Origin: Synechococcus sp. J7-Johnson
GTDB taxonomy: Bacteria > Cyanobacteriota > Cyanobacteriia > PCC-6307 > Cyanobiaceae
Length of the DNA stretch: 58,683 bases
Assembly (NCBI RefSeq): GCF_024345795.1
Contig: NZ_JAGQBU010000018.1
Span: 1 to 58,683 of the forward strand
Direction: 5' to 3'
Part shown: piece after piece, positions 1 to 7,770 of the stretch
How positions within the stretch are numbered: the first letter of the stretch is position 1
How the letters are laid out: each line of letters begins with the position of its first letter
The notes under the pieces: model-generated
Told to the model about the DNA's origin: nothing
Database searches by the model: none
What the model saw: the letters and a program-made list of their open reading frames with translations, nothing else
Program-made: the position numbers and the translations under genes

Positions 1-247
1 ATGCCAGCAGGAGGGGCTCCCATCTCAAGCAGTCTCTGCCTGAGATGCAAACGGGAATCATCTCGCCGTCAAGGGTTCAGCAGAGACGAAGTTCGCCGCG
101 TGCTGTCCCGACCCCTGAACGCTTACGTTAATCAAGATACTTTTTATCGACGGGACAGCGCGCACCCTGTGCATCCAGTTCCCATTCGGTAGCAAAAGCC
201 ACAACGCCGCTGTTCCCATGGGGACACCATCCTGGTGCGGAAGCAGC
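1..247. other. Leader region upstream of the guanidine riboswitch, no gene seen
   Basis: No convincing gene is visible. A 63-codon reading frame begins at base 1, but it has no recognisable motif and a basic, low-complexity composition, so I do not call it. The only AT-rich patch, around 125-150, is a plausible promoter area for the guanidine operon that follows. Confidence 0.5.
127..140. promoter_or_regulatory. Possible NtcA-like box (GTT-N8-TAC)
   Basis: GTTAATCAAGATAC matches the nitrogen regulator NtcA consensus GTA-N8-TAC in five of six fixed positions and lies in the AT-rich patch before the guanidine operon. A clear TAN3T minus-10 box at the usual 20-24 base distance is not visible, so the site could be chance. 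A nitrogen-control site would suit a pathway that releases ammonia. Confidence 0.25.
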
Positions 248-354
248 TCCTAGGGTTCCGGTCCTCCAGCCCGCCAGGGCCACAGGGACGTCTGGTCCGA
301 GAGGAGCTCACCGGGATCACCCGGTTGCACGGAGGGATAAAAGCCCGGGAGACC
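248..354 (+). promoter_or_regulatory. Guanidine-I (ykkC-type) riboswitch
   Basis: Three blocks match the conserved ykkC/guanidine-I aptamer in the right order: CTAGGGTTCCG at 250-260, CTGGTCCGAGAGG at 292-304, and a block from 328 to 351 containing CACGGAGGGATAAAAGCCCG. Between the second and third lies the hairpin ACCGGG-ATCA-CCCGGT. The aptamer ends about 25 bases before the gdmH start, with no separate terminator hairpin and T-run in between, so control may work through ribosome access or an alternative fold of the 3' stem (inference). The riboswitch should turn the downstream genes on when guanidine binds. Confidence 0.93.
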
Positions 355-378: not shown

Positions 379-1569
379 ATGAGCGATCCGTCTGGCCCAG
401 AAGGGGCATTTGAGCGGTCACTCGGTCGCCAGGGCGCCGAGGCCCTCGAGAAGGAAGCCCGCCTGCCGCTCACCGGCTGGCAGCAGGAGGTGGACCAGGG
501 CTTGCTCTACGGCCTTGAGGCGGCTGAGAGCATCGTCGATCGGCGCATTTCCACCTTCTCCCGTGGTGAGCTGCCCCACTACGCGGGGATCAACACGTTC
601 ATGAAGGCGCCTTACATCGAGGATGTGAACCGCGTCGGTGAGTTCGATGTGGCGATCATGGGCGTGCCGCATGACTCCGGCACCACCTACCGCCCCGGTA
701 CCCGCTTCGGGCCCCAGGGCATCCGCCGCATCTCGGCCCTCTACACGCCCTACAACTACGAAATGGGCGTCGATCTGCGTGAGTCGATCAGGCTTTGCGA
801 TGTCGGCGACATCTTCACCATTCCGGCCAATAACGAGAAGAGCTTCGATCAGATCTCCAAGGGCGTCGCGCACGTCTTCGCCAGTGGAGCCTTCCCGATC
901 ATTCTTGGCGGAGATCACTCGATCGGCTTTCCCACCGTGCGTGGCGTCTGCCGCCATCTGGGTGACAAGAAGGTAGGCATCATCCACTTTGATCGTCATG
1001 TCGACACCCAGGAGATCGACCTCGACGAGCGCATGCATACCTGCCCCTGGTTCCATGCCACCAACATGGCCAACGCCCCGGCCGAGAACCTGGTGCAGCT
1101 GGGCATCGGCGGCTGGCAGGTACCGCGTGAAGGGGTGAAGGTCTGCCGGGAGCGGGGCACCAACGTGCTCACCGTCACCGACATCTGCGACATGGGCTTG
1201 GAAGCGGCGGCGAAATTCGCGATCGAGCGTGCCACCGACGGCACCGACTGCGTCTACATCTCCTTCGACATCGATTGCATCGATGCCGGCTTCGTGCCCG
1301 GCACAGGCTGGCCCGAACCCGGCGGTCTGCTGCCGCGCGAGGCGCTCAAGCTGCTGGAGCTGATCGTGCGCAACGTGCCGGTCTGCGGCCTGGAGGTGGT
1401 GGAGGTCTCACCGCCTTACGACATCAGCGACATGACCTCGCTGATGGCCACCCGCGTGATCTGCGATGTGATGGCCCATCTGGTGGTGAGCGGCCAGCTG
1501 CCCCGCAAGAGCAAGCCGCCCTGGCTGCATGAAGCCTGCAACATGGCCGTCGATCAGAAGTGGAGATAG
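379..1569 (+). CDS. gdmH: Guanidine hydrolase (nickel-dependent, ureohydrolase family)
   Basis: Hydrolyses guanidine to urea and ammonia in the cytoplasm. The 396-residue protein has the arginase/agmatinase fold signatures: GGDHS (His180), SFDIDCID (Asp297, Asp299) and a metal motif DRHVD (Asp205, His207, Asp209) where most ureohydrolases read DAHxD. The long N-terminal extension of about 60 residues and the neighbours (guanidine riboswitch, HypA/HypB homologues, ABC importer) match the Synechocystis sll1077-sll1082 arrangement, where Sll1077 is a nickel enzyme activated by the two accessory proteins. This distinguishes it from the true agmatinase encoded at 21929-22855. Automated pipelines often call such proteins agmatinase; context argues against that. 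The ATG at 379 follows the aptamer directly. Confidence 0.92.
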   Translation: MSDPSGPEGAFERSLGRQGAEALEKEARLPLTGWQQEVDQGLLYGLEAAESIVDRRISTFSRGELPHYAGINTFMKAPYIEDVNRVGEFDVAIMGVPHDSGTTYRPGTRFGPQGIRRISALYTPYNYEMGVDLRESIRLCDVGDIFTIPANNEKSFDQISKGVAHVFASGAFPIILGGDHSIGFPTVRGVCRHLGDKKVGIIHFDRHVDTQEIDLDERMHTCPWFHATNMANAPAENLVQLGIGGWQVPREGVKVCRERGTNVLTVTDICDMGLEAAAKFAIERATDGTDCVYISFDIDCIDAGFVPGTGWPEPGGLLPREALKLLELIVRNVPVCGLEVVEVSPPYDISDMTSLMATRVICDVMAHLVVSGQLPRKSKPPWLHEACNMAVDQKWR

Positions 1570-1572
1570 GCC

Positions 1573-1965
1573 ATGCATGAGGTCGACATGACCAAGTGCC
1601 TGCTGCTCTCCCTGCATGAGTGGAAGCGTGGGCAGGAGCCCCTGACTCCCGTGGTGTCAGCCGTGCACCTGCAGGTGGGCGACTTCACCTGCGTGGAACC
1701 GGAGGCGCTGCGGTTCACCTTCGCTGCCGCGGTGGAGGGCACCTGGCTCGACGGCTCGACCCTTGAGATCGACACCGTTCCCCTGCGGGCCCGTTGCCTT
1801 GGCTGCTCCAGCGTCTACAGCCCCGATCCCGATCAGGCCTACCGCTCCCCCTGCTGCGATCAGCCCATGGAGGAGATCGTCAGCGGCCGTGAGCTGCGCA
1901 TCCGCTCCGTCGACTACAGCCTGCCGCAACAGGCATCAGATCCCGCCGCCGTTCCTTCGCGCTGA
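1573..1965 (+). CDS. ghaA: HypA-like nickel insertion protein for guanidine hydrolase
   Basis: A 130-residue HypA homologue. It begins MHE, and the His2 of this start is the nickel ligand in HypA proteins. The C-terminal zinc site is present as CLGC (Cys75, Cys78) but the second pair is adjacent, CC (Cys94-Cys95), rather than the usual CxxC. The start lies three bases after the gdmH stop, so the two are surely co-transcribed. No hydrogenase genes are in the window; together with the next gene it probably loads nickel into GdmH rather than into a hydrogenase, as described for the Synechocystis homologues. Confidence 0.88.
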
Positions 1966-1969
1966 TCCC

Positions 1970-2674
1970 ATGCACATGCCCCTCAGCGACACTCTCGGCC
2001 TCAACCTGATGGCCGCCAATCAGCACCAGGCGGATCACAACCGCGAGCACTTCGACGCCTGGAACCTGCTCTGCCTCAACGTGATGAGCAGCCCCGGTGC
2101 CGGCAAGACCTCCCTGCTGGAACGCACGATCACGGCACTTGCGCCTCATCTGGAGATGGCGGTGCTGGAGGGCGACATGACCACCCAGCTCGATGCCCAG
2201 CGCCTCGAAGCGGTGGGGGTGCCGGTGGTGCCGATCACCACCGGCCGCGCCTGCCACCTGGATGCGGCGATGGTGAGCGGCGGCCTGCGTCAGCTCCAGG
2301 CGCAGCTGGATCCGGCCGCTCTCGATCTGCTCTGGGTGGAGAACGTGGGCAACCTGGTCTGTCCAGCTGAATTCGAGGTGGGCGAGCACCTCAAGGTGGC
2401 CCTGCTGAGTGTCACTGAAGGCGACGACAAACCGCTCAAGTACCCGGTGATGTTCCGGGAGGCCGATTGCGTGCTGATCACCAAGGTGGATCTGCTGCCC
2501 TATCTGCCCGTCGCGGTGGAGCGCATCGAAACGCACATCCGCTCCGTCAACCCGGCCGCCGAAGTTTTCCAGGTGTCGGCCAGCAGCGGCGCCGGGCTCG
2601 ATGCCTGGCACCAGTGGGTGCTGGCCACCACCAGGGAGCACACCCGCCAGGCGGCTCTGGTGGAGGTGGGATGA
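1970..2674 (+). CDS. ghaB: HypB-like GTPase for nickel insertion into guanidine hydrolase
   Basis: A 234-residue SIMIBI-class GTPase of the HypB family. Visible motifs are the P-loop SSPGAGKT at residues 40-47, the HypB block [18 protein letters not shown], and TKVDL as the guanine-specificity motif. The N terminus lacks a histidine-rich nickel store and the CxxCGC motif of some HypB proteins. I take the ATG at 1970, five bases after the ghaA stop; an upstream in-frame ATG would overlap most of ghaA. It should pair with the HypA homologue to deliver nickel to GdmH. Its stop overlaps the next start as ATGA. Confidence 0.9.
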
Positions 2675-4014
2675 GCAGCCTGCACTTGCAGCAGCGCAAG
2701 CTCGATCTGCTCAGCCAGGGGGTGAGTTATGCCCTGGCCAGCTTCGTGGATCTGCACGGCACCAGCAAGGCCAAGGCGGTGCCGCTGGCCCATTTCGAGT
2801 CAATGCTGGCAGGCTCCGAGCTGTTCACCGGTGCCGCCCTCGATGGTGTTCCCCAGGATGTCAGCGACGACGAGGTGGCTGCCATCCCCGATCTGGCAAC
2901 GGCCACGGTCCTGCCCTGGCGCCGCGATGTGGTCTGGCTGGCCAGCAGCCTGCACCTGCACGGCCAGCCCTTCGAGGCCTGCAGCCGCAACATCCTGATC
3001 CGCGCCCTGGATGAAGCCGGGCGGATGGGCTTTCGCTTCAACCTCGGGATCGAGACCGAATTCTTTGTGCTGCGTCGCGGAGATGACGGCGTTCTCCGGC
3101 CCGCCAGCTCCCGCGACAACCTCGAGAAACCCTGCTACGACCTCACTGGCTTGCTCGACAATCTGCCCTGGCTCGATGAGCTGGTTCAGGCGATGAATGA
3201 TCTGGGCTGGGGGGTGTATTCCTTCGATCACGAGGATGGCAATGGCCAGTTCGAGACCGACTTCGCCTATGCAGAGGCGCTCACCATGGCGGATCGACTC
3301 ACCTTCTTCAGGCTGATGCTCAAGGAGATCACCCACCGCCATGGGTTGATCGCCAGCTTCATGCCCAAACCCTTCAGTGATCGCACCGGCAGCGGCGCCC
3401 ACTTCAACATGTCGCTGGCGGATCCAGCCACGGGCCGGAACCTCTTCGTGGGCGCCACAGAGAGCGGTATCTCCCCTCTGGCGGAGCAGTTCATCGCCGG
3501 CATCCTGCGCCATGCGCCGGCGATCTGTGCCGTGATCGCCCCCACGGTCAACAGCTACAAGCGGCTGGTGGCCCAGGGCTCGATGAGCGGATTCACCTGG
3601 GCTCCGGTGTTCATCTGCTACGGCAACAACAACCGCACCAACATGCTGCGGATTCCATCCGCTGCCGATCGGGTGGAATGTCGTGCCGCCGACAGTGCCT
3701 GCAACCCCTATCTCGGTGCGGCGATGATCCTTGCTGCGGGGCTCGAAGGTATCAGGGAGGGCCTGGATCCGGGCCCTGCCAATCTCGTCAATGCCTACCG
3801 GCTCAGCCCCCAGCAGCTGGCAGAGCGGGGCCTGAAGGTGTTGCCGCGGACCCTCGGGGAGGCGATCGAGGCCTTTGCCGCTGATCCACTCTCCCGCTTG
3901 GTGTTCGGTGATGCCATGGCCGACGCGTTCATCGACTACAAACGAGCCGAATGGGCCGACTATCACGCCTGCGTGTCCGACTGGGAACTGACGCGCTATC
4001 TCGAGTTCCTCTGA
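2671..4014 (+). CDS. GlnT-type glutamine synthetase homologue (glutamate-amine ligase)
   Basis: A 447-residue member of the glutamine synthetase superfamily, closest in pattern to the rhizobial GlnT / gamma-glutamylmethylamide synthetase group rather than to cyanobacterial GlnA or the large GlnN. Recognisable blocks are ASFVDLHG near the N terminus, [33 protein letters not shown] and the C-terminal NRTNMLRIP. These enzymes join glutamate to ammonia or a small amine using ATP. The start overlaps the ghaB stop (ATGA at 2671-2674), so it belongs to the guanidine operon and would be controlled by the riboswitch. The simplest role is capture of the ammonia released by GdmH; ligation of another amine or of guanidine itself is possible. 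Substrate cannot be read from sequence. Confidence 0.85.
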
Positions 4015-4080: not shown

Positions 4081-5151
4081 ATGACCTCCATCCCACCTTC
4101 TTCCCTCACCCCCATGCCCACCCCCACATCCCGCACTCAGCATTCCCAGGTTTCTAGGCGCAGGCGGCAACGGCTGCTCGGATTCGGTCTGCTGGCGGTG
4201 CTGGGCGGTGGCCTGCTGGCGAGCTGCCAGAGCCCGCCGCAGACGGAAGCCACGCCCGTGCGGATCGGCTTCAGTGCCTGGCCCGGTTGGATTCCCTGGC
4301 AAGTAACTGAGGAGAAGGGCCTGTTCAAGGCCGCCGGCGTTCCCGTGACTCTTCAGTGGTTCGACGGCTATCTCGATTCGATCAACGCCCTCAACGCCGG
4401 CCAGCTCGACTGCAACAGCCAGACACTCAACGACACGATCAGCTCGATCGCCGGTGGTGCCGATCTGCGGGTGGTGCTCACCAACGACAACTCCACCGGC
4501 AATGATCAGATCATCGCCGCCCAGGGCATCACCGCGGTGCCCCAGCTCAAGGGCCGCAAAGTGGCTGCTGAAGAGGGCACCGTTGATCACTACCTGCTGC
4601 TCCTGGGCCTGAAGAAGGCAGGCCTCACGGCCAAGGACATCGAGTTCGTGCCCCTGGAAACCGGAGCAGCAGCAGCGGCCTTCGTGGCTGAGAGGGTTGA
4701 TGCCGTGGGCGTGTTCGCGCCCTTCACCACCCAGGCGCTCAAGCGTCCCGGCAGCACCACCCTGTTCTCCTCCAAGGAGTTCCCCGGCGCCATCAGCGAT
4801 CACCTGGTCTGCCGCAGCGAATTCGTGGAGAAGAACCCCGAGCAACTGCAGAAGGTGGTGAACGCCTGGTTCGCCACCCTCAAGGAGATCAAGGCCAACC
4901 CAGGCCCCAGTCTCACGATCCTGGCGGCCCGGGCCGGGGTGAGCGAGGCCGAATACAAGGAGTACGACCTCGGCACCACGATCTTCACGCTCGAGCAGAA
5001 CCGCGAGGCGCTCAAGCCCGGCAACACCATGGCCTCGCTGCCGTTTGCCGCCGGCGAGATCAGTACCTTCCTGCAGGAGGTGGGCCTGGCCAAGACGCCA
5101 CCGGATCTCACCAAGCTCTTCGACTCCCGTTTCGTCGATGCGGCTCCCTGA
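4081..5151 (+). CDS. ABC transporter substrate-binding lipoprotein, probable guanidine importer
   Basis: A 356-residue periplasmic binding protein of the NMT1/SsuA/TauA type. After an arginine-rich N terminus (RRRRQR, residues 26-31) comes a hydrophobic stretch and the lipobox LASC with Cys49, so it should be lipid-anchored on the outer face of the plasma membrane. The mature part begins TPVRIGFSAWPGWIPW, typical of this family. A second ATG at 4114 is an equally plausible start and changes only the tail before the signal. Gene order hydrolase-maturation-ABC importer matches Synechocystis sll1080-sll1082. The substrate is inferred to be guanidine or a derivative from the riboswitch and enzymes upstream. 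Confidence 0.85.
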   Translation: MTSIPPSSLTPMPTPTSRTQHSQVSRRRRQRLLGFGLLAVLGGGLLASCQSPPQTEATPVRIGFSAWPGWIPWQVTEEKGLFKAAGVPVTLQWFDGYLDSINALNAGQLDCNSQTLNDTISSIAGGADLRVVLTNDNSTGNDQIIAAQGITAVPQLKGRKVAAEEGTVDHYLLLLGLKKAGLTAKDIEFVPLETGAAAAAFVAERVDAVGVFAPFTTQALKRPGSTTLFSSKEFPGAISDHLVCRSEFVEKNPEQLQKVVNAWFATLKEIKANPGPSLTILAARAGVSEAEYKEYDLGTTIFTLEQNREALKPGNTMASLPFAAGEISTFLQEVGLAKTPPDLTKLFDSRFVDAAP

Positions 5152-5161
5152 GCGAACCGTC

Positions 5162-5908
5162 ATGCGCTCCCCCTGGTTGCTGGGTCCGCTTGGGATCGCT
5201 GTGGTGCTGCTGGCCTGGTCCCTGATCAGCCTCAGCGGCGCGGTGGATCCCCTCTTCCTGCCCAGCCCGCCTGCGGTCTTGCAGGCAGCTGGCGACCAGT
5301 TCCGGGGAGGAATCCTGTTGGCCGACGCGATCGCCAGCATCCGGCGGGTGTTTCTCGGCTTTGCGCTATCGGCTGCCCTGGCCCTGCCCCTGGGCATCGC
5401 CATGGGCAGCAACACGTTGATCTGTCGCCTGCTGGAGCCCCTGCTGGGGCTGATCCGCTACATGCCGGCTCCGGCCTTCATTCCCCTGTTGATCATCTAT
5501 TTCGGCCTGGGGGAGTTGCCCAAGGTGCTGCTGATCTTCATCGGCACCTTTTTCTTCAACACTTTGATGATCATGGATGCGGTGAAATTCGTGCCCCGGG
5601 AGTTGCTTGAAACCGCCCTCACCCTCGGAGGCCGGAAGCTGCCGATCCTCACCCGAGTGGTGGCCCCGTACATCGCCCCCCAGGTGATCGATGCCTATCG
5701 CATCAACATGGCCTCGGCCTGGAACCTGGTGATCGTGGCGGAGCTGGTGGCCGCCAACGAGGGCCTGGGCAAGCGGATCAGCCTGGCCCAGCGCTTTCTG
5801 CGCACCGATGAGATCTTCGTGGGTCTGATCGTGATCGGCCTGATCGGCCTGCTGATCGATCTGGGCTTCCGCGCCGTGCTGCGGCGCAGCTGCCGCTGGG
5901 CCAGCTGA
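5162..5908 (+). CDS. ABC transporter permease, probable guanidine importer
   Basis: A 248-residue integral membrane protein of the BPD-transporter type used for nitrate, sulfonate and taurine uptake, with about six hydrophobic segments. The EAA-like loop is ETALTLGGRKLPILTRVVAP near residues 138-157, the coupling site to the ATPase. The ATG at 5162 is ten bases after the lipoprotein stop; a longer frame from 5045 would overlap that gene and lacks family similarity. It is followed one base later by the ATPase start. Confidence 0.87.
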   Translation: MRSPWLLGPLGIAVVLLAWSLISLSGAVDPLFLPSPPAVLQAAGDQFRGGILLADAIASIRRVFLGFALSAALALPLGIAMGSNTLICRLLEPLLGLIRYMPAPAFIPLLIIYFGLGELPKVLLIFIGTFFFNTLMIMDAVKFVPRELLETALTLGGRKLPILTRVVAPYIAPQVIDAYRINMASAWNLVIVAELVAANEGLGKRISLAQRFLRTDEIFVGLIVIGLIGLLIDLGFRAVLRRSCRWAS

Positions 5909-5909
5909 G

Positions 5910-6677
5910 ATGCACCTTTCCGTCAGTGGCGTCAGCAAGACCTTCGGCGATGGCCGCCACGCCAAGCTCGTGCTCGATGACATCAACCTCTCGATCGATT
6001 CGGGTGAATTCGTGGCCCTGGTGGGCAGCTCAGGCTCGGGCAAATCCACTGTGATGCGCCTTATCGCCGGCCTGGAGCGCCCCAGTACGGGGGTGATCGC
6101 AATGGACGGCAAGCCGGTGCGCGGGCCGGGCTCCGACCGGGGCATGGTGTTCCAGAAATACAGCCTTTACCCCTGGATGACGGCTGCCCAGAACGTGGCC
6201 TTCGGCATGTCGCTGCAGGGACTGCCCAGGGCTCTGGTGCGGGAGCGCACCGCCTATTTCCTGGAGGTGGTGGGCCTGCAGAACGACTCCCGGCGTCTGC
6301 CGAAGGAACTGTCGGGGGGGATGCAGCAGCGGGTGGCGATCGCCCGTGCCCTGGCCGCTGACCCGAAGGTGGTGCTGCTGGATGAGCCCTTCGGCGCCCT
6401 GGATCTGCAGATTCGCGAAACGATGCAGGAGTTCCTCTATGAGCTCTGGCAGCGCTCCGGAATCACCGCTCTGCTGATAACCCACGATCTGGAGGAGGCG
6501 CTGCTGCTGGCCCAGCGGGTTCACATCATGGCGCCGAGCCCCGGGCGGATCGTGCGCACGGTGGAGGCGGATCTGGACCGCTCCAACCTGGCTCACCTAC
6601 GGATGTCCCCGCCGTTCCTGGAGCTGCGGGAGGAACTGGTCAACAGTCTGCGCAACCTCGATGCAGCCGCCAGCTGA
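5910..6677 (+). CDS. ABC transporter ATP-binding protein, probable guanidine importer
   Basis: A 255-residue ATPase of the nitrate/sulfonate/taurine subfamily. It shows Walker A GSSGSGKST at about residue 39, the Q-loop VFQKYSLYPW, the signature LSGGMQQRVAIARAL, Walker B VVLLDEP and the D-loop GALD, followed by the switch histidine in LLITHDLEEA. It energises import through the preceding permease. It starts one base after the permease stop and its 3' end overlaps the Rieske oxygenase frame by 17 bases if that gene begins at 6661. Confidence 0.9.
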   Translation: MHLSVSGVSKTFGDGRHAKLVLDDINLSIDSGEFVALVGSSGSGKSTVMRLIAGLERPSTGVIAMDGKPVRGPGSDRGMVFQKYSLYPWMTAAQNVAFGMSLQGLPRALVRERTAYFLEVVGLQNDSRRLPKELSGGMQQRVAIARALAADPKVVLLDEPFGALDLQIRETMQEFLYELWQRSGITALLITHDLEEALLLAQRVHIMAPSPGRIVRTVEADLDRSNLAHLRMSPPFLELREELVNSLRNLDAAAS

Positions 6678-7770
6678 CGCGGTTGCCATGGCCGCCAACG
6701 GGGCCTCCTTCCCCAGGCGCTCGTTCCTGGCGGCCGAGCACTACGGCTCGGCCGCAGTGGCGGTGCGTGAGCGGGCGGTCTACGCACCGAGGTTCTGGCA
6801 CCCGGTGGCGCCTCTCTCCAGCCTGCCGGAGGGCTCGGTCCTGACTCTAGAGCTCCTGGACCTGCTTTTGCTGCTCAGCCATCCCCCTGGCGGGCCGCCT
6901 CGGGCGTTCCTCAACCGCTGTCCCCACCGCGGAGTGGCCCTGCTGCCGCCTGCGGCCGGCGCCCAGCCCTGCCGCCGTCTGGTCTGCCCCTACCACGGCT
7001 GGACCTACGACCTGGATGGCCGCCTGCGAGCCGCGGCCCGGGAGCCTGAGTTCTTCGATCCCTTCGTGCGCAGCGACTGGCCCCTGACCGGTCTGGCCTG
7101 CGCAGTGCGCGCCTCGATGCTGTGGGTGGCGATCGGTCCCGATCCGCTGCCGCTGGAGCAGCAGCTGGACCTGGTGGTGCAGGAGCTGGGCCCGGAGCTT
7201 GAGCGGCCACGGGTGCTGCTGGCCAGCCTGGAGCGCGACCTGGCCTGCAACTGGAAGATCGCCCACGACAACACCCTCGACGACTACCACGTGGCGATCG
7301 CCCACCCCACCACCCTGCACCGGCAGCAGGGGCCGGTGCGCCACTACCGCCACCGCTTCGCTGCCCACACCAATCTGCTGGCCACACCGGTTGCGGCCCC
7401 AGGCCATGGCGGCCCTGCCGCTGCGGCGGACTTTCTCACCTTCGGAGCGCCGCCGTGGATTCACCTGCTGGCCTGGCCGGATGGTCGCCTGGCCCTGATC
7501 AGCTTTCCGCCCCGCGATCCCGGCCGCTGCCGCATGCAGGTGTGGTTGCTGGGGGACCCCTCGCAGCAGCACCGCGGCCAGGAGTGGATCGAGGAGCTGG
7601 GCGCCTTCCTGGAGGAGGACCGGGCCCTGGTGGAATCGGCCCAGCGAGGTTATGCCAGTGGCCTCAAGCCTGGCCCGGCCCATCGGCTGGAGGGGCGCAT
7701 CCTGCACCAGCAGGCGCTCTATGCGCGGATCATGGGCCTGGAGGAGCCGCCGCGGTCAGATTCCGCCTGA
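6661..7770 (+). CDS. Rieske non-heme iron oxygenase, alpha-subunit type
   Basis: A protein of up to 369 residues with a complete Rieske [2Fe-2S] site, CPH (Cys87, His89) and CPYH (Cys109, His112), followed by the mononuclear iron motif DNTLDDYHVAIAH (His210, His215) and a later EEDRALVE that may give the acidic ligand. This is the layout of ring-hydroxylating and N-demethylating oxygenases such as choline monooxygenase or glycine betaine oxygenase. No reductase gene is next to it. The start at 6661 overlaps the ATPase gene; an ATG at 6688 is the alternative. Overlap suggests co-expression with the guanidine importer. The substrate is unknown; an N-alkylated guanidine or betaine-like compound is a guess from context. 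Confidence 0.85.
   Translation: MQPPADAVAMAANGASFPRRSFLAAEHYGSAAVAVRERAVYAPRFWHPVAPLSSLPEGSVLTLELLDLLLLLSHPPGGPPRAFLNRCPHRGVALLPPAAGAQPCRRLVCPYHGWTYDLDGRLRAAAREPEFFDPFVRSDWPLTGLACAVRASMLWVAIGPDPLPLEQQLDLVVQELGPELERPRVLLASLERDLACNWKIAHDNTLDDYHVAIAHPTTLHRQQGPVRHYRHRFAAHTNLLATPVAAPGHGGPAAAADFLTFGAPPWIHLLAWPDGRLALISFPPRDPGRCRMQVWLLGDPSQQHRGQEWIEELGAFLEEDRALVESAQRGYASGLKPGPAHRLEGRILHQQALYARIMGLEEPPRSDSA

Follow-up and report, generated by a model that had tools for sequence, protein, structure and literature searches.

Accounts of bacterial guanidine use describe, in the published sections drawn on here, an importer combined with a guanidinase and its nickel chaperones or with a carboxylase, a deaminase, and allophanate hydrolase, and, once, demethylation of methylguanidine. 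The guanidinase operon of Synechocystis 6803 consists of gdmH, ghaA, ghaB, and genes for an ABC importer, and has a guanidine-I riboswitch (PMC12186494, PMC12930504). Accessory enzymes may be added to such a set, as in the guanidine carboxylase operon of Vreelandella, where mgdH and mgdL, which encode a 2-oxoglutarate dioxygenase and a lyase, are there for a related compound (PMC12508155). Among glutamate-amine ligases, the closest described systems are the GmaS (GMAS) enzymes. The pocket of RhGmaS includes Gln175 and Asn188, its amine site includes K30' from the neighboring subunit, and Asp177 is the residue proposed to deprotonate the amine; RhGmaS accepts ethylamine and hydroxylamine, and GmaS accepts ammonia with a Km of ~8.7 mM (PMC7948447). 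An Aminobacter that grows on metformin uses gmaS (PMC11446756).

The window analyzed here is the whole 58,683-nucleotide stretch of contig NZ_JAGQBU010000018.1 from Synechococcus sp. J7-Johnson, and it holds an operon that resembles that of Synechocystis 6803 in its gene set and guanidine-I riboswitch but differs in that a glutamate ligase gene, glnT1, is inserted between hypB and the importer genes (Table 1). Where the Vreelandella operon has gained a dioxygenase and a lyase, this one has gained the ligase. glnT1 is a real gene of 447 codons, which begins with an ATG at 2671 and ends with a TGA at 4012-4014, and its dN/dS of ~0.09-0.23 against five relatives (dN 0.02-0.28, dS 0.16-1.22) indicates purifying selection. 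It is the fourth gene downstream of the riboswitch, in the order gdmH, hypA, hypB, glnT1, and its position in a plus-strand gene run that the riboswitch heads and that reaches 7770 suggests that it is under riboswitch control. The gdmH product carries GGDHS, FDRHVD, and SFDID motifs, which we take as support for its identity. The host genome also encodes a 473-aa GlnA and a PF00120 protein of 722 aa that, from its length, is probably GlnN.

Table 1. Features of the riboswitch-led guanidine operon in the window.
Feature	Position	Strand	Evidence or remark
Guanidine-I riboswitch aptamer	239..353	+	Rfam RF00442, 84 bits (gathering 63)
gdmH, Ni-dependent guanidine hydrolase homologue (arginase family)	379..1569	+	PF00491, 260.8 bits
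hypA/ghaA-like nickel chaperone	1573..1965	+	PF01155, 87.5 bits; TIGR00100, 85.2 bits, slightly below cut-off 88.1
hypB/ghaB-like nickel-insertion GTPase	1970..2674	+	TIGR00073, 278.7 bits (cut-off 121.2)
ATGA overlap of hypB stop with glnT1 start	2671..2674	+	
glnT1, GlnT/GMAS-type glutamate-amine ligase, 447 aa	2671..4014	+	TIGR03105, 554.5 bits; tree; AF2 model
glnT1 codons 49-62, loop with clade signature	2815..2856	+	T53, A56 replace GlnA ammonium-site Asp, Ser
glnT1 codons 184-198, catalytic DHED..GQFE segment	3220..3264	+	D186, E195 kept; S184, D197 changed
ABC transporter substrate-binding protein (NMT1/SsuA-like), putative guanidine importer	4081..5151	+	TIGR01728, 207.7 bits (cut-off 163.5)
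ABC transporter permease	5162..5908	+	PF00528, 83 bits
ABC transporter ATPase	5910..6677	+	PF00005, 115.1 bits
Rieske non-heme iron oxygenase	6661..7770	+	PF00355 and PF00848 above cut-off

An earlier note on this DNA had described glnT1 as translationally coupled to ghaB, and the arrangement extends well beyond this strain. Overlaps of 4 or 1 bases between hypB and glnT occur in 41 of 42 cyanobacterial entries with the same gene order, or 39 of 40 distinct records once two duplicated pairs are merged, and the single exception has a 1-base gap. Of the 39 cyanobacterial glnT loci, 36 have a guanidine-I riboswitch, and the remaining three start inside gdmH or glnT. The riboswitch model was built from eight aptamers, that of the window and seven from loci searched again with it; one further set of searched loci was independent of the model. 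Among 386 sampled cyanobacterial genomes (genus and class names follow the taxon on which each sample was centered), gdmH is present in 59. The homologues in 56 genomes other than that of the host are 80-93% identical, and two further ones are fragmentary. With at most four candidates scored per genome, an orthologue of glnT1 (at least 68% identity) was found in seven of the 386 genomes, always 0.7-1.2 kb after gdmH, and was not found in 52 of the 59 gdmH genomes. This recurrence refutes a one-off insertion in a single strain. A Rieske gene is present in 29 of the 39 cyanobacterial glnT loci; coupling of glnT to it was rejected, as the Rieske gene also occurs in two operons without glnT and is missing from 10 of the 39 loci, some of which are cut by a contig end.

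The GlnT1 protein scores above the cut-off (469.6) of TIGR03105, 'type III glutamate--ammonia ligase', and matches Pfam Gln-synt_C with 322.5 bits. Together with the tree, the TIGR03105 score bears out the earlier assignment to the GlnT/GMAS class, and the phylogenetic placement that had been proposed as a check sets GlnT1 apart from both GlnA and PuuA, a polyamine ligase. A GlnA-type identity was ruled out by this placement and by a TIGR00653 score of 322.9 bits (cut-off 429.15). PuuA (gamma-glutamylputrescine synthetase) was likewise ruled out, since NF045547 gave 254.5 bits against a cut-off of 650 and E. coli PuuA branches in the tree as a distant outgroup; the same score makes polyamines unlikely substrates. 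The GlnT1 clade (UFBoot 100) stands apart from the two GMAS clades, represented by 9qur and RhGmaS, and does not group with characterized GMAS, although support at several inner nodes of the mixed group is only 24-59. Rhizobial GlnT shares the TIGR03105 annotation and ~37-38% identity with GlnT1, and S. medicae GlnT groups with RhGmaS. Unlike glnT1, rhizobial glnT has two regular neighbors, a glutamine amidotransferase gene and an FMN glutamate-synthase-like gene, in each of the five annotated plasmid records examined, and sarcosine-oxidase-type genes nearby in three of them.

By sequence, the solved structures nearest to GlnT1 are those of a glutamate--methylamine ligase, the GMAS of Methylovorus mays (9qur), and of GmaS (7cql), and every listed glutamine synthetase ranks lower. 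The top matches to the AF2 model of GlnT1 (pLDDT 87.2) are GmaS structures with Z scores of 50.8 and 50.6, versus 48.2 for the best glutamine synthetase; the 1-naphthylamine glutamylation enzyme (8wwu), also a ligase of the glutamine synthetase fold, is distant at Z 41.6. Aniline AtdA1 is another such ligase that glutamylates an amine other than ammonia, and both it and the 1-naphthylamine enzyme are partnered with Rieske oxygenases. The AF2 monomer served for fold comparison only and was dropped as a model of the amine pocket, because in RhGmaS two subunits contribute to that site.

GlnT1 resembles GMAS in fold, length, and catalytic residues, the conserved set being E128, E130, D186, E188, E195, H244, R298, R322, R327, E336, and R338. 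D186 and E195, the counterparts of RhGmaS Asp177 and Glu186, are invariant in the clade, and the former position is D in all aligned clade and GMAS-group sequences and H in all eight GlnA-type sequences. The amine site differs, with a clade signature of T53, D58, S184, D197, and N246 (A48T, W53D, Q175S, N188D, and H237N in RhGmaS numbering). S184 and D197 occur in 98 of 98 guanidine-linked sequences, where all 21 GMAS-group sequences, two of them with solved structures (9qur and 7cql), have Q and N; only fully identical sequences were merged for this comparison, and the 98 amount to 93 distinct ones by an internal 200-aa core. Both residues are nearer to the GlnA-type states (A/T/K and mostly D) than to those of GMAS. 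T53 and A56, which do not vary within the clade wherever the residue was aligned, sit where eight of eight GlnA-type sequences have D and S, which we take to be the GlnA ammonium-site ligands on a loop at the subunit interface.

The clade extends into proteobacteria, where the fetched loci lack gdmH and mostly carry the guanidine carboxylase pathway instead. A guanidine-I riboswitch lies near 40 of 41 Marinobacter ligase loci. Among the Gammaproteobacteria sampled (369 genomes), the ligase occurs in 11, every one of which also has a CgdB-type gene, a gene present in 30 overall; the hypergeometric and Fisher values calculated in this analysis take no account of common descent. Against our reading, no carboxylase was found in the fetched stretch of 7 of 39 new Marinobacter loci, no guanidine riboswitch at four loci (L218, L259, L263, and L264), and no guanidine-I match in the genomes of six (L135, L136, L141, L146, L148, and L152). 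The carboxylase, CgdA, and CgdB were identified in a single locus (L133) by TIGR02712, TIGR03425, and TIGR03424, which carry the names urea carboxylase and urea-amidolyase-associated proteins, and elsewhere by similarity to that locus; the riboswitches and the literature suggest that they act on guanidine. The ligase clade is linked to both guanidine pathways and in two phyla, a broader tie to guanidine than the one originally noted, and the two pathways have in common guanidine, an ABC importer, and ammonia. A role as substitute for allophanate hydrolase in the carboxylase operons was rejected, as 21 of the 24 genomes searched have atzF above cut-off, nine of them on the ligase contig; the three without it are cyanobacteria, the host included. 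A MetX-like hydrolase adjoins cyanobacterial GlnT2 as well as the Marinobacter ligase.

A trimethylamine-linked branch is nested inside the GlnT1 clade (UFBoot 97-100) and shares its amine-site signature. Its loci include ones with Tmm, Tdm, and Amt (in one, Tmm 821.7 with cut-off 675 and Tdm 1191 with cut-off 1100), and methylamine-class activity is therefore plausible. Genes of the N-methylglutamate-synthase type lie beside 9 of 16 loci of this branch and 12 of 17 GlnT loci outside the clade, but beside none of 95 guanidine-type loci. In the host genome no strong stand-alone glutamate-synthase-domain protein was found, and therefore no evident N-methylglutamate synthase that would use gamma-glutamylmethylamide; stand-alone proteins with this domain, ~440-660 aa long, exist in many of 34 genomes searched. 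The absence applies to the surroundings of the loci and, for strong matches, to the host genome.

We consider it very probable that glnT1 encodes a GMAS-type ligase serving guanidine metabolism, that is, an ATP-dependent member of the GlnT/GMAS superfamily that would have been recruited to guanidine catabolism in an accessory role. On binding guanidine, the riboswitch would switch on the guanidinase, nickel chaperones, ligase, and importer jointly. GlnT1, presumably an oligomer like the RhGmaS dodecamer, would make gamma-glutamyl phosphate, which a small primary amine would attack to give a gamma-glutamylamide; we infer which amine this is, in which direction the reaction runs in the cell, and what becomes of the product. 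A methylamine-class amine is our tentative choice of main substrate, one that may well prove wrong, and the full reading of an accessory ligase of guanidine catabolism acting on such an amine is offered just as tentatively. The amine may derive from N-alkylated guanidines imported along with guanidine, or may itself be taken up directly, and ammonia could be a second substrate at high concentration. The missing N-methylglutamate synthase genes count against methylamine, as a methylamide would need another fate, and so does the replacement of the GMAS pocket residues by S and D. We know of no alkylguanidine hydrolase in the gdmH-glnT1 operon. Ureohydrolases that free alkylamines do exist, such as dimethylguanidine hydrolase; metformin hydrolase reportedly did not hydrolyze methylguanidine (PMC11399263). 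The suggestion in the earlier note that methylguanidine might be the true substrate fares poorly, given the lack of an evident N-methylglutamate synthase in the host and, in the passages concerned, no binding of methylguanidine up to 1 mM by the guanidine-I riboswitch of V. boliviensis, which binds guanidine (PMC12508155), and no urea from a methylated compound, printed as 'methylguanine', with guanidinases (PMC11410670). A review does name methylguanidine among inducers of guanidine riboswitches (PMC12186494). The failure of guanidinases and metformin hydrolase to act on methylguanidine, and of the V. boliviensis riboswitch to bind it, also counts against the methylamine reading.

GlnT1 could instead be a dedicated glutamine synthetase that captures ammonia from either pathway as glutamine. 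The amine product common to the two pathways is ammonia (PMC12186494), GmaS also uses it (PMC7948447), TIGR03105 is named for an ammonia ligase, and S184 and D197 lean toward GlnA; yet T53 and A56 replace the GlnA ammonium ligands, the host already has GlnA and the 722-aa protein, and most sampled gdmH genomes do without an orthologue, which leaves this role unlikely, if a serious competitor. We regard as distinctly unlikely that the enzyme acts on some other amine that co-occurs with guanidine (e.g., hydroxylamine, aminoguanidine, or ethylamine), with its operon position reflecting that co-occurrence. The acceptance of ethylamine and hydroxylamine by RhGmaS (PMC7948447) and the varied partners of GlnT relatives would fit, but the conserved hypB overlap and the riboswitch at the head of the cyanobacterial loci favor a shared pathway.

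Another possibility is that guanidine, or methylguanidine, is itself glutamylated by the ligase to a less basic acylguanidine, as a trap or detoxification from which a partner amidohydrolase releases guanidine. The clade tracks guanidine across two chemically unrelated pathways, and compared with GMAS it has two extra acidic residues, D197 at the amine site and D58 probably near it. Moreover, a creatininase-family gene directly precedes glnT in loci L133 and L134 and in 8 of 10 further gammaproteobacterial ones, and creatininase opens the acylguanidine bond in creatinine. However, the trimethylamine-linked branch has the same signature, neither the cyanobacterial nor the Marinobacter ligase loci yielded a creatininase homologue, the family member scores below its equivalog cut-off (123.6 versus 235), guanidine is a poor nucleophile, and we know of no precedent for its glutamylation. 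We judge this chemistry improbable, and still a little more so its elaboration into a branch of the glutamine synthetase superfamily specific for guanidine and making gamma-glutamylguanidine, cleaved in Gammaproteobacteria by the creatininase-family hydrolase, as a buffering or detoxification loop common to both pathways.

Our literature search found no paper linking such a ligase to guanidine operons, and subscription papers and supplements, which lay outside it, may mention one; in the searched texts with both guanidine riboswitch and glutamine synthetase, the latter term occurs only in reference lists or an unrelated sentence. This branch may be wrongly or incompletely described by the name 'type III glutamate--ammonia ligase', and gmaS-type markers may miscount guanidine users as methylamine users. 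That a glutamate ligase is conserved in the operons of both pathways, among Cyanobacteria as well as Gammaproteobacteria, means that a step may be missing from accounts of guanidine use, possibly one in which guanidine users repeatedly conjugate an amine to glutamate. A ligase branch shared by the guanidine operons of unrelated bacteria with different chemistry suggests that a step in bacterial guanidine handling has gone unnoticed.

The glnT gene is intact, and the assignment of its product to the GlnT/gamma-glutamylmethylamide synthetase (GMAS) family in the earlier note is borne out. The product scores above the cut-off of NCBIfam TIGR03105 (554.5 bits against 469.6) and below those of the NCBIfam models for GlnA (322.9 against 429.15) and gamma-glutamylputrescine synthetase (254.5 against 650). 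The solved structures closest to it by sequence are the GMAS entries 9qur and 7cql, and structure comparison of an AlphaFold2 model (mean pLDDT 87.2) likewise places GMAS nearest, with Z values of 50.8 for 9qur and 50.6 for 7cqn versus 48.2 for the top glutamine synthetase.

The observation that this homologue lies in a guanidine operon was also correct. Behind the riboswitch come, all on the forward strand and with gaps of at most 66 bases, gdmH (guanidinase), the nickel chaperone genes hypA and hypB, glnT, a three-gene ABC transporter and a Rieske oxygenase gene. The glnT start overlaps the hypB stop, and an overlap of 4 or 1 bases is found in 41 of the 42 rows (40 distinct records) from cyanobacteria that share this gene order, the exception being locus L117 with a 1-base gap. 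The GC content of glnT (0.638; GC3 0.81) is near the values of the neighbour genes. The Rieske oxygenase, which is found also in operons that lack glnT, has glycine betaine monooxygenase as its top NCBIfam match, far under the cut-off, and is a candidate N-demethylase of methylated guanidines.

Coordinates of the window features and of related features in other loci
Feature	Sequence	Position	Strand	Remark
Guanidine-I riboswitch	window	239-353	+	heads operon; 84 bits
glnT	window	2671-4014	+	447 codons
Rieske oxygenase	window	6661-7770	+	ends operon
Second GlnT	window genome (G000), contig C7	13441-14652		also as L081 10424-11683
Eight tandem tRNA genes	Phormidium locus L129	192-946	-	adjoin glnT
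Creatininase-family gene	Ferriphaselus locus L133	7178-7939		directly before glnT
Alpha/beta hydrolase	Marinobacter locus L131	6796-7836		by GlnT1
Alpha/beta hydrolase	cyanobacterial locus L074	11968-13110		by GlnT2
Shortened gdmH match	genome G185, contig C1	2651180-2651704
Shortened gdmH match	genome G340, contig C38	7083-7931

Besides glnT, the genome carries GlnA, another GlnT-type gene (44% identity), a GS-like protein whose 722 aa match GlnN in length and a fifth gene with PF00120, as well as urease, one full-length glutamate synthase and a single weak match to the glutamate synthase domain (25.8 bits). The second GlnT, present also in loci L074 to L077, adjoins a MetX-like alpha/beta hydrolase (family PRK07581), and in L075, L076 and L081 also a gene of desaturase type, which in L075 was tested with Pfam FA_desaturase. 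Several Cyanobium-type genomes carry this set some 7 kb downstream from their first glnT.

Orthologues at 91% or more occur in 7 of 9 genomes of the genus, each time in the same operon. Across the phylum sample, 7 of 386 genomes gave a match of at least 68%, with the rest at or below 46% among the matches listed. All seven have gdmH, which occurs in 59 of the 386 genomes (two fragmentary), a coincidence with a chance of 1.4e-6 under random placement among genomes, ancestry ignored. In each of the seven, glnT starts 0.7-1.2 kb downstream of gdmH; genome G178 has the differing order gdmH-hypA-glnT-hypB. A scan of named genomes gave 493 confirmed stretches, and the 80 best of them include 39 cyanobacterial loci at 75% or above, with gdmH in 38 and the guanidine-I riboswitch in 36, and those missing either are contigs beginning inside gdmH or glnT. 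The two shortened gdmH matches, from one cyanobacterial genus and one with an internal stop, possibly reflect decay of the guanidinase.

The same 80 stretches include eight relatives at 65-69% outside the guanidinase-operon cyanobacteria (L129-L136), from Phormidium, Vasconcelosia, two Marinobacter, Ferriphaselus and three proteobacterial MAGs, and gdmH is absent from all eight fetched loci. Four of them (L131-L134) have a guanidine-I riboswitch together with an ABC importer and a large carboxylase of the biotin-dependent type, which in L131 and L134 runs off the end of the locus; L132-L134 have in addition two DUF1989-type genes, cgdA and cgdB, and a guanidine-II riboswitch is found in L133 and L134. 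The Ferriphaselus order is riboswitch, SBP, permease, ATPase, creatininase-family gene, glnT, cgdA, cgdB, riboswitch II and carboxylase. NCBIfam assigns the 1206-aa protein of L133 to urea carboxylase (1965 bits, cut-off 1304) and the cgdA and cgdB products to urea carboxylase-associated proteins (322.7, cut-off 206, and 347.9, cut-off 284.7), families that we take to be the guanidine carboxylase and carboxyguanidine deaminase of the guanidine literature. In Phormidium and Vasconcelosia the degradation genes lie on contigs other than that of glnT. Phormidium tanganyikae is a cyanobacterium with the carboxylase-type set, having carboxylase, CgdA and CgdB behind a guanidine-I riboswitch (contig L268), and Vasconcelosia has gdmH-hypA-hypB with a riboswitch (L267). 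No match to the guanidine-I riboswitch was obtained in the L135 and L136 genomes.

Wider sampling extended the association with the carboxylase pathway. In Marinobacter (the genus of genome G396), glnT is found in 41 of 124 genomes, and 39 newly fetched loci, mostly 19-kb stretches, hold the guanidine-I riboswitch in 38, the carboxylase in 32 and a MetX-like alpha/beta hydrolase adjoining glnT in 38. With L131 and L132 included the riboswitch count is 40 of 41; the stretch L218 has neither riboswitch nor carboxylase. The L131 and L074 hydrolases are homologous (about 41%), and thus the ligase and a MetX-like hydrolase form a recurring pair. Among 369 evenly drawn Gammaproteobacteria (the class of genome G398), glnT occurs at E < 1e-140 in 11 and a CgdB-type gene at E < 1e-50 in 30, and every one of the 11 also has the CgdB-type gene (1.5e-13 by the hypergeometric test, which takes no account of ancestry), although the CgdB match of one, G405, reaches 50% only. 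In 8 of these 11 genomes a single contig carries both genes, no more than 5 kb apart. Ten loci fetched from nine genomes of this class sample (L257-L266) showed a creatininase-family gene by glnT in eight, carboxylase with cgdA and cgdB in seven and the guanidine-I riboswitch in three; three further loci, in a search of L259 and L261-L265, have guanidine-II riboswitches, and L260 is of trimethylamine type. The control set, made up of the remaining 33 GlnT loci from the scan (L138-L171 minus L142), contained zero guanidine-I riboswitches by the model built in this analysis, and no gdmH or carboxylase.

In a tree built from 109 sequences by maximum likelihood (LG+G4, UFBoot), the window gene falls in a clade of 60 (UFBoot 100); an earlier FastTree of 130 sequences, which lacked the later samples, also recovered the clade (0.996). 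Three groups, each with UFBoot 100, make up nearly all of it: a basal one linked to carboxylase and creatininase genes (n=7), that of the cyanobacterial guanidinase operons (24 sequences after thinning) and a mixed one in which filamentous cyanobacteria and proteobacteria occur together (n=28). The inner order of the mixed group is weakly supported, and L166 joins the basal group on a long branch with support 74. L166 and L156 are MAG records titled Bordetella parapertussis that bear GMAS-like genes, and the titles look like misassignments. The mixed group includes a nested branch of proteobacteria (UFBoot 97-100), and several loci of this branch carry genes for trimethylamine monooxygenase, TMAO demethylase and an ammonium-type transporter along with glutamate-synthase-like genes. 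In L149 the monooxygenase reaches 821.7 against a cut-off of 675 and the demethylase 1191 against 1100. Sixteen of the 33 control loci belong to the nested branch or its neighbours. N-methylglutamate-synthase-type genes are present at 9 of these 16 and at 12 of the remaining 17, and at 0 of 95 guanidine-type loci (47 + 48). In this clade linkage to guanidine is thus more common and, judged by position, probably the older state, and the trimethylamine (TMA)-linked branch marks a move into methylated-amine metabolism within the clade.

The ATP, glutamate and Mg ligands of RhGmaS (the 7cql protein) named from PMC7948447 are kept in the glnT product except Gln175, Asn188, Trp189 and His237, and the base Asp177 is retained as D186. 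Up to 98 guanidine-linked, 12 TMA-linked, 21 GMAS-group and 8 GlnA-type sequences were compared. Guanidine-linked sequences have T53, S184, D197 and N246 where the GMAS group has A, Q, N and H, and D58 where 17 of its 21 members have W; T53 and D58 are found in 97 of 97 (one fragment lacks the region) and the other three in 98 of 98. The TMA-linked sequences carry the same signature apart from one X at D197, and the two sets differ elsewhere, e.g., F185/Y and C337/L. All eight GlnA-type sequences have Asp at position 53 and Ser at position 56, which serve as ammonium ligands, and both are lost in the glnT clade. Thus, the pocket of the clade differs from the pockets of both GlnA and known GMAS.

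What might such a ligase do in two different guanidine pathways? Given the conserved residues, GMAS-type chemistry is expected, in which a gamma-glutamyl phosphate would form and then be attacked by an amine. We favor an amine of the methylamine class, because both characterized GMAS and the gene context of the nested branch suggest one, and because methylated guanidines are known to be used as substrates close to guanidine operons (PMC12508155) and by guanidinase relatives (PMC11399263). The case for methylguanidine as the true substrate, a possibility raised in the earlier note, is weak, since binding of methylguanidine was not seen with the one guanidine-I riboswitch tested (PMC12508155) and the guanidinases tested do not cleave it (PMC11410670). 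These data, together with the lack of an N-methylglutamate-synthase gene with guanidine-type loci, are also the weak points of the methylamine-class reading.

Common to both pathways are guanidine, an importer and ammonia, and the ligase may instead capture the ammonia that both share, a role that the earlier note suggested and that is as yet unproven. It may also glutamylate guanidine directly, which is less far-fetched given the extra acidic residues and the creatininase-family partner. The latter lies directly before glnT in L133 and in L257-L259, L261-L263, L265 and L266, mostly guanidine carboxylase operons; the L133 member is under the creatininase equivalog cut-off, and the gene possibly encodes an amide or acylguanidine hydrolase. 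A methylamine-class amine remains the favored substrate.

Among the freely accessible papers searched, we found no published link of a glutamine synthetase homologue to guanidine operons. The link of glnT to guanidine drawn in the earlier note holds as an association across a clade with two guanidine pathways, and it is this clade-wide tie of the ligase to both that is worth following.
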